64,000 nt of DNA from Sporisorium sorghi (Eukaryota; Basidiomycota; Ustilaginomycetes; Ustilaginales; Ustilaginaceae). The DNA lies in assembly GCA_023212695.1 (NCBI GenBank), contig JALCCG010000005.1, positions 124,491 to 188,490 of the forward strand, read 5' to 3'. Positions 7,911 through 27,053 of the stretch are shown piece by piece. How positions within the stretch are numbered: position 1 is the stretch's first letter; every line of letters begins with the position of its first letter. A program made the position numbers and the translations under genes. Below the pieces are notes generated by a model that was not told where the DNA came from, did no database searches, and saw nothing but the letters and a program-made list of their open reading frames with translations.

Positions 7911-8686
7911 TTGGGTGGATGCAGTTTACCGCCCAGCACAACACCCGCTTTTTTACTAACAGCTTCTAGTGCTGTCCTTTCATCTGAGACGCCGTTGCCG
8001 CCCGCCCTTCCGTCACTGTCGCTGTCGCTGTCCGCTGTCAGTCGCCTGTGTCGTTTTACCTTGCGTCGTGTCTCTCAACTCCGACCATTCCAGCGACCTT
8101 GCTCCGTGGCGTTGTGTGCTTCTCCTCCTTGCTTGTCTCCGTCGCTTCTGTCATCGCCCGCCTTGTCTTGCTAAAGCTCGGTTGATCCGGCCAAAGCAGC
8201 GTCCTGCGCCTTGCATCAGCCAGCAAAAGCAGCAAAAGCAGCAATAGCAGCAAGACACTCGTATGCCTGCCACCCAGATTTCCATTCTGTGTATGTTCGG
8301 TTTGTTCTGTCACTGTTCTGCTCAGCTTCATCACCTCACTCAGCCTCAGCCTCTCTCTCACTCTCTCTCCCCTTTTATAGTCACCCACGTCCGACTCAGC
8401 TAGCGTCCACTTCCATCTCTTCGTCCCTTTGTTCCCCTTCCCTTTGTCGACCATTCTACATCTCTCGAGACGCTGCAGCTTGACTCCCTTCTACATCATC
8501 CACCAACAACAACAATCTACTTCTCTTCTCGTCCACATCGATGTCAGAGCAGAATCATCCGTTTCTACTCGACTGCGCGCTCTTCTGATCTCATCTAACG
8601 CCATCTCGAACCATTTGGATCCTGTTGACTTCGACAGACAGGCCAACATCTGACTGCCGCAGCAACCGGCGTCGTCGGCTCAGATA

Positions 8687-10981
8687 ATGCGAAAGAATCC
8701 TCTCTATCAGGATCGTCAATATCAGGAAGCCACTCCTTCCAGCTCGACTCCCTTTCCATCCTCGTCGTCTCTCGTCACCACCACTACTCTTCCTCCTATC
8801 ACCTCCTTGACACGTAGCACCGCCAACCACGCCCGAAACTCGATTGCCTCCACCTCTTCCTCTCATTCGGTGGCTGCCTCTCTGTCACATTCCGTCTCGT
8901 CCGATTCCTTGTCGAGTCGTTCCAGTCCTCTCAACGAGCCCCGAAGCCCCTACGAAGGCCAGCCTCTTCTCGCTTCAAGGCGATACGCTGGTGCAAGCAG
9001 CGCCACTTGCTCTGCCATGTATCACGTACAGCACCCAACATCCGCAGATGCTCACGCCCCCCACCCTTACCACCACCACCACCACCAAGACGCTTCACCA
9101 CGTCACACTCGCCCTGTCGAGGATGGCTCGCATCTCTGGGGAGACGGCATGAAGGGCATCTGGAACAACCTCACCGGTGCTCCGCATGGCAAGCCTCGCT
9201 CTCAGCTGCCTGCAACCTCCACCACGACCAAGGGCGAGCACCTCGAGCCTGCACGTCCTGCCGATGTCGAGGCGGCCACCTCCATCTGGGACGTTCCTCG
9301 TGACACCGTCGCCATGACCATGGGTTTCCAGGGCAGCTATCAAGATCACCCTTTCCCATCACAGCAGGGCTGGCAGCAACAGCAGCAGCCACATCAGCCC
9401 ACGCTTCCATCCTACTCGGCCGGTGCTGATTCGCAGCAGCAATCGCATCTTGGCTATTCGTCGTCGACGTCGACGTCGTCCTCGTCCTACTCCAACATGC
9501 CTGCACCCTCAGGACTGGCGGGAGCGACCACCGACGCTACCCGATCGCGTGGCAGTTCGGACGCTGGAGCCGTCGGCGGCGATCGTCTCTATCCGCGCAG
9601 GCCCAACTATCCGCACGCCAGATCCACCGACGCCTCCTCTACCGATGCGCCGCACAACGGCCAGTGGTGGTCGGCGCCCGACTCTCACGCCGCTGCCGTC
9701 GACGATGCTTCCGCCGCGGGACACTATGGCGCACGCCGTCTGCAGCCGCCCCCGCTGCCCGAGACGCGCTCTGCATCGCGACCTACTTGGCCCAACACGA
9801 GCGGCTTCGATGCGAGCAGCTACGAGTTCCCTCAGTCTAGCTTGGGTAAGCGAGGGTACGACGAGGAAGCCATGGGTGGATCGACGCAGAGCGGTGCTGG
9901 CAGCGACGCAAGTGACAGCGCTGCACGCAGATACTCTCTGACAGCCAACATGTCGCTCTCGAGGCCGTCGGCACCCATCAGCAGCATGATGAACAACTAC
10001 CTTGCTTCGCATGCCGACCCTCGTCGACCTTCGCTTCCCTCGGACCCGTATGGACCGCCGCAGCCCGCGACTGCAGCGTCAGCGGCGGCAGCAGCAGCGG
10101 CGGCGGCGGCGGCGCAGCGCGGTGGTGGATATCCCAGCCCGTCGCAGTGGAGTCCGTGGAGTCACGCCGCGTCGCAACCTGGTGTAGCTGGCTCGATGAG
10201 CACCTCTAGCTCGTCGCCCATCTTGCCTGGATGGCGCGACAACGGCGCGGCTATGCGATACGCCGGCGTCGAGGCCAGCTACGCCTCCCCAAGCGGCATG
10301 CCCGGCAGCAGCGACAAGCGTCAACAGCGCGATCGCTCCTCGTCCTCGGCTTCGGCCGCGCAGCAACAGGCCAACGTCCTAGCCAACACTCCGTTCCACA
10401 TCACCACGGACATTGTCCTCCGCGCGCCCGCCGGCAGCAAGATGGAAGACGTCTACTACGACCAGCACTGCGAGCTGCGCACGGGTCTGGCGGACCCGCC
10501 CAAGTCGGACTTCGAGGTGGACAACGAGGAGGACCGTCCGCGTCGGCAGACGGACAAGCTGCGTTTTCCGGGCGATCTGTATACGCCGCGATGGGTGCGT
10601 GGCTCGGGCAATGCGCGCGAGGCGTGGTGCGGCCGGTGCGAGAGCGGCAACTGGCTGCAGTTGAAGAACTCGCAGTACTGGTATGACCAGGTGCACAAGC
10701 ATGGGATTTCGTCGGTGTCGGGCTTGCGCTTTACGGCGCCGACGCATCTGAAGGTGTATGCGGATGCGGCGGGGACGGTGGAGGGTAAGTGTCATCAGTG
10801 TAAGGAGTGGGTGTTGATCTGTACGGCCAAGAGGCGTAGGAACTTTGCGGCGTTTTTCAAGCATGCGCATGCGTGCCATTCGTACAGGAAGGCGAGCGCG
10901 GTGGGCAATGGGCCGTATGTCGAGCACAATCCGGGAGGGCACAGGAACAGCAAGAAGGGCAGCAGCGGTGATTCGGTTTGA
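8687..10981 (+). CDS. Rua1-C domain transcriptional regulator
   Basis: Single-exon gene, 764 aa. The first 560 or so residues are low complexity (Ser, His, Gln, Ala runs, including a polyalanine tract near residue 465), typical of a fungal regulator. The C-terminal 200 residues match the domain named after the Ustilago regulator Rua1 (formerly DUF4451). Visible zinc-ligand candidates are CGRC, then NWLQLKNSQYWY and HGIS, then CHQC and the final HAHACH. In smut fungi Rua1 controls the ustilagic acid glycolipid cluster; this is a family member, not shown to be Rua1. I see no separate classical C2H2 finger pair. The ATG follows a long CT-rich leader. It converges with the PDI gene 194 bp away. 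A nuclear DNA-binding role is inferred from the family. Confidence 0.8.
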   Translation: MRKNPLYQDRQYQEATPSSSTPFPSSSSLVTTTTLPPITSLTRSTANHARNSIASTSSSHSVAASLSHSVSSDSLSSRSSPLNEPRSPYEGQPLLASRRYAGASSATCSAMYHVQHPTSADAHAPHPYHHHHHQDASPRHTRPVEDGSHLWGDGMKGIWNNLTGAPHGKPRSQLPATSTTTKGEHLEPARPADVEAATSIWDVPRDTVAMTMGFQGSYQDHPFPSQQGWQQQQQPHQPTLPSYSAGADSQQQSHLGYSSSTSTSSSSYSNMPAPSGLAGATTDATRSRGSSDAGAVGGDRLYPRRPNYPHARSTDASSTDAPHNGQWWSAPDSHAAAVDDASAAGHYGARRLQPPPLPETRSASRPTWPNTSGFDASSYEFPQSSLGKRGYDEEAMGGSTQSGAGSDASDSAARRYSLTANMSLSRPSAPISSMMNNYLASHADPRRPSLPSDPYGPPQPATAASAAAAAAAAAAAQRGGGYPSPSQWSPWSHAASQPGVAGSMSTSSSSPILPGWRDNGAAMRYAGVEASYASPSGMPGSSDKRQQRDRSSSSASAAQQQANVLANTPFHITTDIVLRAPAGSKMEDVYYDQHCELRTGLADPPKSDFEVDNEEDRPRRQTDKLRFPGDLYTPRWVRGSGNAREAWCGRCESGNWLQLKNSQYWYDQVHKHGISSVSGLRFTAPTHLKVYADAAGTVEGKCHQCKEWVLICTAKRRRNFAAFFKHAHACHSYRKASAVGNGPYVEHNPGGHRNSKKGSSGDSV

Positions 10982-25181: not shown

Positions 25182-26063
25182 ATGACAACCGGACAAGCGA
25201 TCACCCTCCTTCCACCGCCCATCGACCTCACCCTCGACAACAACGACTCCCTCCCGCAATGCACCGCCAACCTGATGCCGTTTAGCATCGACTACGACGG
25301 CCCTGCGCCCATCGATGCGTTTCTCGTGCAGCGGCGCGCCGATCCTTCCTCTTCTTCTTCCGGCGGTGGCGAGAGTGTGACGGGGGAAAGTGTAAGGGAC
25401 AGCTTCATGTCGGCGTTTCGAGGGCGGGCGATGCAGTCGACGCCGTTGGCGCTGCCCAAAGGGTATGTGGCCAAGGTGGCGTGTGTTGCGCAGGTTGTCG
25501 AGCGGTCGAGCGGTGGAGGTGGCAGTGGTGGTGGTGGTGCGGTTGCGGTGGGGAGCGGTGTGGACGAGGCGGAGAGGGAGAAGAAGCGCAGACGGACAGC
25601 TAAACAGCCCCCTGCGCGGCAACAGAAGTTCTCCATGGACAGTGACGACGACGATGACGACGTGCACTCGATACACGCTGCATCGCCACCACCTCCTCAA
25701 TCAACCGAAACTCAACCCGCAGCAGGATCCACCCCTCCCAGGGCAGGCGCCACGATACACATCACGCCAATCGCCCAGGTCCACCCAAACCATTTGACCG
25801 TCTGGGGCCCCGACGGACCCATCGACAAGGGCGACGACGCCTTCTTCCGCACCATAGGCGAGTGGTATAACGTCGTTGTGCCGTTGGTGAGTCTCCGATC
25901 CTCCCCCTTCACATCGCTCTGTCCCGACTTGTTCTCCGTTGAAAGGGTGGCAGCGTCGACGGAGCAATGTAAGGGTTGTGCTGGAGACAATGTGGTTGTT
26001 CACGCTGACAGCTCTCTCTGTTGAAATGCTTTCTCGTGGCGGAAACGGTAGTTACACGCTTGA
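25182..26063 (+). CDS. RNH203: Ribonuclease H2 subunit C
   Basis: Exon 1 is 25182-25886 (235 codons) from the ATG in AAAATGACA. It has the two conserved blocks of the RNase H2 C subunit: LPQCTANLMPFSIDYDGPAP with the following FRGRAMQSTPLALPKGY, and LTVWGPDGPIDKGDDAFFR. Between them is a disordered insert with Gly-, Lys/Arg- and Asp-rich parts (DSDDDDDD). The subunit is a scaffold in the heterotrimer that removes ribonucleotides from DNA. Exon 1 ends at a GTGAGT donor. The terminal exon is uncertain: an acceptor at 26051 after a CTGAC branch-like motif would add only Leu-His-Ala and a stop (26052-26063), similar to the short end in relatives. An acceptor at 26011 would add a longer, unlikely tail. 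Confidence 0.75.
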
Positions 26064-26379
26064 AAGGCGGACAATCGTGGTTTGTGTCAACCCGCAGAGG
26101 AGTTGCCGCTTCCCGCAACATCCGCACAAAGAACACCTTCAATGCTTGGCCATTCCCATCCGCACTATCACACTCAATCGCAAAGGAAAGCAATGGAACG
26201 CAAATGACATAAAGGCACGCATGTGTCTGCTCGTCTGTGTTTCTCTCTCACACACACACACTCCGCGTGCGGCTGCTTTCTCTTCATCGATCTGCCAGCT
26301 TTCAACTGCCATCGCCATCCTCTCAGTCCTGCCTTTGTGCCTTCCTCAACCGACCTTGACCATCATCGAAAGCGCAACA
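26064..26379. promoter_or_regulatory. Upstream region of the histone H4-like gene
   Basis: 316 bp with a short CA run (about 26252-26262) and a pyrimidine-rich leader. No histone-type promoter element is recognised. Confidence 0.5.
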
Positions 26380-27053
26380 ATGGGTGGAAGTGAGTCGCAT
26401 CGCTCTTGGAGCTTTTCCACATTCTCGGCAGTGCAGAGTCTGACATTTTGCTTCCCCTCGCCGTCCGATTGACACAGAGACATTCACCGTGAGCTCGCCC
26501 TTCCTGCATTCCTCCAATCCGACTCCTTGTCAAGCCGTACTGAATCTTCTGACCCTGCTGTTCGTCTCCTCCGTCGCACAGAGCATCAAAACGCTCCCGG
26601 GCCAAGGCAACACGCGCACCGCGGACCGCGCCACCAAGCGGTACCGCGCGCAACGCACCGCGCTCGAGCGCATCACGAAAGGCTCGATCCGCAGGCTTGC
26701 GCGTCGTGGCGGTGTCAAGCGTAAGCCTCTCTCCCCCCCCCCCCCTTTCCCTTTCTCCGTGAAGCACTGTGTGCTGACCTTTTCTTTTCGCTTGTGCGTG
26801 GTCGGCGGTGCAGGTCTGGCGGGCACGGTGTACGAAGAGACGCGCTTCATCCTGCGCGACTTTCTCGCGCGCGCTGTGCGGGATGCCATTGTATACTCGC
26901 GTAAGTCTTGTCCTCTTCCCTCCTCTCTCCGCCGAACCGCACGCTAACCTCTCCTCCTCTGCGCAACAAGAACACTGCAACCGCAAAACCATCATGACGA
27001 TGGACGTGATCTACGCACTCAAGCTCCAGGGCCGCACGCTGTACCACTTCTAA
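26380..27053 (+). CDS. Divergent histone H4-like protein
   Basis: Five exons give 109 aa: 26380-26389, 26478-26488, 26582-26720, 26814-26900, 26971-27053. All four introns (88, 93, 93, 70 nt) have GTGAG or GTAAG donors and AG acceptors, and most have CTGAC or CTAAC branch-like sites; phases match at every junction. The histone fold is clear: [13 protein letters not shown], then [12 protein letters not shown], then [17 protein letters not shown] at the end. Against canonical H4, recalled from memory, about 45 of 72 fold positions agree by hand count, very low for H4. The tail does not keep the GKGGKGLGKGG acetylation region, and the K16-RHR-K20 stretch reads KRYRA, so K20 is Ala. Canonical H4 has 102-103 residues. 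It converges with the esterase-like gene, stop to stop, 17 bp apart. Role unknown; a specialised H4 variant is likely. Confidence 0.85.

Follow-up and report, generated by a model that had tools for sequence, protein, structure and literature searches.

Histone H4 is normally among the least variable proteins in nature, and, to our knowledge, few variants of it are known. What is to be made of a gene of the smut fungus Sporisorium sorghi whose product has the H4 histone fold in a strongly altered sequence, how is it maintained, and what could it do in chromatin? We addressed these questions in a 64,000-nucleotide stretch of contig JALCCG010000005.1 (the window, here and below), in the rest of the genome, and in protein databases. 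Our proposal, drawn from sequence comparisons, is that the gene probably encodes an H4 variant of the Ustilaginales, one that goes back to an old H4 duplication, has stayed near the gene for RNase H2 subunit C (RNase H2C), is held by selection, and acts as a minor nucleosomal H4 lacking most of the tail marks. The same window encodes, at 8654-10981 (+), a protein with an Rua1_C domain; this family takes its name from Rua1, a transcription regulator with a role in ustilagic acid synthesis.

The H4-variant gene lies at 26380-27053 on the + strand. Its five exons of 10, 11, 139, 87, and 83 nt give a 109-aa product when spliced (P numbers designate database models):

26380..26389, + strand: exon 1, 10 nt, M-G-G and the first base of K4; the start MGGKTFTS is also found in P0002 and P0003
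26478..26488, + strand: exon 2, 11 nt, the remainder of K4 and T-F-T
26582..26720, + strand: exon 3, the remainder of the rewritten tail, the KRYR basic patch, and a 10-residue stretch; orthologous stretch in P0177, P0184, P0192, and P0198
26814..26900, + strand: exon 4, the long central helix with the signature RFILRDFL; orthologous in P0002-P0004, P0043, P0052, and P0065, and as RFILQEFL in P0046
26971..27053, + strand: exon 5, a 23-residue stretch and the stop; orthologous in P0043, P0046, P0052, and P0198
26390..26970, + strand: overall span of introns 1 to 4 (26390-26477, 26489-26581, 26721-26813, and 26901-26970), phases 1, 0, 1, 1, with GT..AG borders

The preliminary description, made from the DNA letters, had given this five-exon, 109-aa gene at these coordinates, and they proved right, with intact splice borders and an open frame. 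All four introns are GT..AG introns of 70-93 nt, and each carries one CTNAY motif 27-40 nt ahead of its acceptor, where simple arithmetic expects about 0.5-0.7 per intron, so that these motifs lend the splicing weak support. In-frame stops lie inside introns 1 and 4. Neither intron 2 nor intron 3, both 93 nt long, contains one; hence, their removal is not forced by the sequence alone and their retention would leave the frame open. Introns 3 and 4 stand at the same place where orthologue models run into them (P0184; P0177, P0043, P0046, and P0052; translated junctions read by eye). The N-terminus MGGKTFTS is built from the two tiny exons and the beginning of exon 3, and its recurrence in the models of Ustilago sp. 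UG-2017b and Pseudozyma hubeiensis supports both tiny exons; the Kalmanozyma brasiliensis model (P0004) begins MPPRPQQS instead. The Ustilaginales genomes studied in PMC10262431 have a mean of less than one intron per gene, which makes four introns within 330 nt unusual. This intron richness recalls an idea of the authors who described H4E, the ascomycete H4 variant, namely, a cDNA-derived copy that gained its introns later.

The upstream neighbor on the same strand is the RNase H2C gene:

25182..25886, + strand: RNase H2 subunit C exon 1, upstream neighbor, identified by Pfam RNase_H2_suC (46.1 bits versus a cut-off of 20.8) and by homologues
26052..26063, + strand: RNase H2 subunit C last exon, L-H-A-stop, placed by eye after ..GGTAG; seven homologue models end LHA, LHG, or LHE
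26064..26379, + strand: gap of 316 bp from the RNase H2C stop to the H4-variant start, presumed 5' UTR and putative promoter

Four database models (P0177, P0184, P0192, and P0198), one each from Sporisorium reilianum, Ustilago trichophora, U. nuda, and Testicularia cyperi, extend from exon 1 of RNase H2C into the H4 gene and join the two parts in frame. Taken at face value, they would describe an RNase H2C-H4 chimera, in which the H4 exons serve mainly as the 3' part and RNase H2C exon 1 is spliced to H4 exon 3; as both window junctions are phase 0, the same join would be open in S. sorghi. Against this, three of the four joined models continue into an H4 intron and have incorrect ends. The same MGGKTFTS start heads two stand-alone models, P0002 and P0003, both tiny exons are present in the window and bordered by GT..AG, and the seven other RNase H2C models have ends of their own. 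The joined models are probably annotation errors in need of correction, and a genuine chimera seems to us barely credible. Two of these four RNase H2C proteins joined to histone H4 exons are called Histone H4 in UniRef.

That the 109-aa protein is of the H4 type is clear from its sequence, which contains the H4 histone fold with a 24-residue stretch. Its best match among PDB sequences is histone H4 (E = 8e-30; phmmer). Over core positions 29-100, it is identical to an animal-type H4 at 46/72 positions, in agreement with the preliminary estimate of about 45 of 72, and to the canonical H4 of its own genome at 43/72. The latter is an intact gene on contig C261, divergently transcribed from an H3 gene, and the assembly (23.2 Mb, 469 contigs) holds at least one such canonical H4 among the best-scoring candidates covered. 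The two proteins share the histone fold, including a common 19-residue stretch; however, the canonical gene has one phase-0 intron after K20 and the variant gene has four other introns, and the variant tail is rewritten. The other histone-fold genes elsewhere in the genome include a second H3, a CENP-A-like H3, and an H2B (names given by eye). The canonical H4 (L021 2361-2609 and 2694-2756, - strand) is somewhat unusual itself, with 66/72 core identities to animal-type H4 and a final A, and the CENP-A-like H3 at L011 (G000:C304:4400-4744) has its own kind of tail and, judged by eye, an additional stretch within the fold region, SYEHGECGSG.

A histone fold may also belong to a non-nucleosomal protein with another partner, as in CENP-T or TAF6, and the only Pfam-A matches of the variant point in this direction, namely, CENP-T_C with 26.3 bits (cut-off, 28.1) and TAF with 19.9 bits (cut-off, 21), both below threshold. 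Yet the canonical H4 itself passes the CENP-T_C cut-off with 30.9 bits, so this family is not specific and does not provide a sharp test, and a better CENP-T match lies elsewhere in the genome (C409, 40.7 bits). Moreover, the best 60 of 90 PDB matches of the variant are all named histone H4, one of them jointly with H2A, and the residues we take to contact DNA, H3, and H2B are mostly kept. We consider such a non-nucleosomal role very improbable.

Seven other named species of the Ustilaginales have orthologues. The 65 matches from a search of 5.8 billion proteins included three named variant-type relatives (Ustilago sp. UG-2017b, P. hubeiensis, and K. brasiliensis), whose models have C-termini that are apparently wrong or without the HCNRKT stretch. 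In a profile search with 7988 candidates scored and 7557 matches, the best 120 matches added no other named member, and U. maydis is not named among the matches listed in the protein, profile, and RNase H2C searches. The RNase H2C protein search returned 25 proteins, including that of the window, and eight of the 24 other homologues are linked to an H4 variant, four by the joined models and four by a contig of the same base count as one bearing a separate variant protein (553027, 423475, 563724, and 9559 bases); for the other 16, no H4 variant was seen among the database proteins. Three of these four equal-sized-contig cases are named Ustilaginales. Equal base counts are a strong but indirect sign of one shared contig, which does not imply adjacency. 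The fragments P0043, P0052, and P0065 carry the RFILRDFL signature, with no link to RNase H2C. Testicularia belongs to the Anthracoideaceae and Sporisorium to the Ustilaginaceae; since the variant and its RNase H2C link occur in both families, the gene and its place should be at least as old as the family split, barring transfer. Two other database H4s, P0023 and P0107, have RFVLRDFL, like the smut variant, but a more canonical tail, and could be further variants or cases of convergence.

Trees were built from an alignment of 72 columns with two H4E rows, so labeled by organism and sequence. P0065 was excluded, and position 74 of P0043 and P0046 is E, as in the unspliced reading, where splicing would give Q by our reading. 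The 11 variant rows form one side of a branch at 77/0 in the 35-row set, in which some rows are misregistered or misaligned at the end, and at 58/98 in the 30-row set left after dropping P0063, P0096, P0099, P0100, and P0111; neither branch is starred. When 76 of 170 further rows were added (106 rows), 10 of the 11 variant rows formed a starred set, and forcing all 11 together was 15.1 log-likelihood units worse (p-AU 0.34), which does not reject a single clade. The bootstraps had not settled in any of these trees. The comparison rows of this set were drawn from searches made with the variant, so that residue counts in it lean toward the variant. The trees neither joined the variant with H4E nor rejected such a clade (AU p 0.156 with 30 rows and 0.24 with 106 rows); the H4E study (PMC10878826) had similar trouble in deciding on a common origin by trees. 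A recent copy of the canonical H4 of S. sorghi was considered as well and is weakly rejected: forcing the 11 variant rows together with this H4 gave an AU p of 0.014 (30 rows, one of several tests on a short alignment), and the introns differ too.

The neighboring gene offers a yardstick for constraint. In 28/28 pairs of eight species, the variant (exons 3-4) is more identical than the adjacent RNase H2C exon, although the pairs are non-independent, U. trichophora is represented by exon 3 alone, and the local alignments clip diverged ends such as the T. cyperi tail. For the window and S. reilianum, for example, identity is 69/75 for the variant and 158/227 for RNase H2C, and an example with a narrow margin, S. 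reilianum versus P. hubeiensis, has 43/60 and 156/231. These are protein identities, not dN/dS, and they argue strongly against neutral drift of the variant. A pseudogene was thus ruled out, given the intact splice borders, the orthologues open in the parts covered, and a conservation above that of RNase H2C. The preliminary description had seen a diverged H4 variant and no pseudogene here, and had proposed a look for smut orthologues and for a canonical H4 elsewhere in the genome; both exist, and the RNase H2C linkage, the conservation above the neighbor, and the shared derived residues bear its view out.

The survey of residues counted, at each position, only the orthologue rows that cover it. 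Fully kept are R35, R36, R39, R40, and R45 (8/8), Y72 (10/10), H75, R78, K79, and T80 (5/5), and K91, R95, T96, Y98, and F100 (6/6), and mostly kept are D68 (9/10), R67 (8/10), K31 (7/8), and K44 (6/8); Y88 is kept in 5/6 rows and is L in the remaining one. Most of the residues that we presume to contact DNA, H3, or H2B thus appear conserved in the variant. Changed throughout are G56F and E63 to A or T (both 10/10) and A76C and K77N (both 5/5), R92 is L in 5/6 rows and K in 1/6, and G99 is H in three of six rows and Y in the other three, so that the C-terminal end reads LY(H/Y)F. The variant ends at F100, 2 aa short of canonical H4, and the final glycines are absent.

The tail before I29 is longer than in the canonical H4 of S. 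sorghi (37 versus 29 residues, both including Met) and poorer in lysines, with three in the three MGGK-start models versus five, at positions 4, 10, and 26 (window and UG-2017b) or 4, 10, and 22 (P. hubeiensis). In the alignment to the canonical tail, only K16-R17 match the KR of the variant basic patch; K5, K8, and K12 face Q, T, and D, and K20 stands opposite a one-residue gap. The variant accordingly does not carry the canonical set K5, K8, K12, K16, and K20, but, as one of its lysines aligns with K16, the loss of tail sites is incomplete. A motif of its own, S-x-K-x-LP-x-Q, occurs in 4/4 rows compared.

How far these features speak for a function is best judged against the main rival, a surplus H4 paralogue that is still nucleosomal and has no special role, tolerated as a backup under weak constraint. 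Single orthologues differ at some canonical contact positions, and the codon adaptation of the variant is ordinary, as would suit a backup; so would the nearest functional parallel, the H4E of Aspergillus nidulans, whose deletion gave no detectable phenotype (PMC10878826), which suggests that such variants may matter little. However, the derived G56F, A76C, K77N, and G99H/Y are held across species, the tail motif recurs (tempered by LAGQ in S. reilianum and by T. cyperi, which is without the motif), and the H4 part is the more conserved in every pair with RNase H2C. We judge a mere backup rather unlikely.

Codon usage gives a hint of the amount of protein made. Adaptation to core-histone usage is 0.35 for the variant, 0.65 for the canonical H4 on C261, 0.64-0.80 for the four core histone genes (leave-one-out values, with two of the four genes partial), and 0.31 for the CENP-A-like gene. 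The variant is not coded like a bulk histone. Among nine other window genes, eight have values of 0.24-0.37 and one of 0.62; the value of the variant is thus ordinary within the window and argues only against bulk-histone expression. Restricted expression is one of several things that this would fit, and the preliminary description had suggested a specialized variant, perhaps for meiosis, spores, or a particular chromatin domain. Nevertheless, K. brasiliensis and P. hubeiensis have kept the gene, both formerly placed in Pseudozyma, a group without a described parasitic stage, and no paper on the variant was found in the literature searched. The genomes of relatives called asexual that were studied in PMC10262431 retain most of the core meiosis genes, so that a meiotic role is conceivable; we regard a life-stage-specific H4 for meiosis or teliospores as unlikely.

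We propose instead, as the preferred reading of the locus, a selected minor nucleosomal H4. The variant would be made below the level of bulk histones, pair with H3, and stand in for canonical H4 in a limited number of nucleosomes, wrapping DNA and docking H2A-H2B much as H4 does. The A. nidulans H4E, which is nuclear and interacts with H3 (PMC10878826), is an ascomycete parallel that we count in favor of this nucleosomal reading. With a tail lacking K5, K8, and K12, the sites of acetylation, and K20, a site of methylation, such nucleosomes would be blank to the enzymes and readers of those sites, and R92L together with a C-terminus without the final glycines may retune H2A-H2B docking. A further-reaching version, which is conceivable although on balance doubtful, is that of an order-wide and unreported smut variant, independent of ascomycete H4E, that takes the place of canonical H4 in a defined compartment of chromatin and renders this compartment blind to signaling through K5, K8, K12, and K20. 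If true, fungi would have invented a modification-deaf H4 a second time, in parallel. The locus also illustrates how tiny first exons and erroneous "fusion" gene models can keep a conserved histone from view.

Among the known systems close to the smut variant is H4E, which Flipphi et al. 2024 (PMC10878826) found in Pezizomycotina, basal Taphrinomycotina, and Glomeromycota by a search of fungal genomes; they also noted that H4 has diverged in Rozella, in Microsporidia, and in certain Saccharomycetales. The main text of that paper contains none of the words "basidiomycet-", "Basidiomycota", and "Ustilag-". In the open-licence literature searched, including parts of PMC10878826, PMC3029354, PMC10262431, and PMC13052989, we found no report of a smut H4 variant, nor is it mentioned in passages of PMC10126416, PMC10399791, PMC2442719, and PMC5307856. 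The H4E of A. nidulans (hheA, including the Neurospora H4v; PMC10878826) resembles the smut variant as a divergent H4 beside canonical H4 genes, with a rewritten tail poor in modifiable lysines, a longer N-terminal tail (in the smut variant, 37 residues versus 29 in canonical H4), several introns at places unlike those of canonical H4, and a wrong database gene model. It differs in its phylum, in its neighbor genes, in its C-terminus, which is longer in H4E and shorter than canonical in the smut variant, and in its introns, compared here by phase: a typical H4E has phases 2,1,2,0,0,0,0, some genes having an extra 3' phase-1 intron and those of Glomeromycota a single intron, versus 1,0,1,1 in the smut variant. 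The H4.V of Trypanosoma, set beside the smut variant by description only, is likewise an H4 variant with a single copy, separate from the genes for canonical H4, but it belongs to trypanosomatids and marks transcription termination sites (PMC13052989). Human H4G is also shortened at its C-terminus; it is, however, nucleolar and matches H4 with 85% identity where the two overlap (PMC10878826), the smut variant being more diverged. With H4E described in Ascomycota and Glomeromycota, the smut variants would form a second fungal family, linked to the same neighbor in several Ustilaginales, an order that includes laboratory-tractable smuts, and this second family would offer a comparison for the purpose of a lysine-poor H4 tail.
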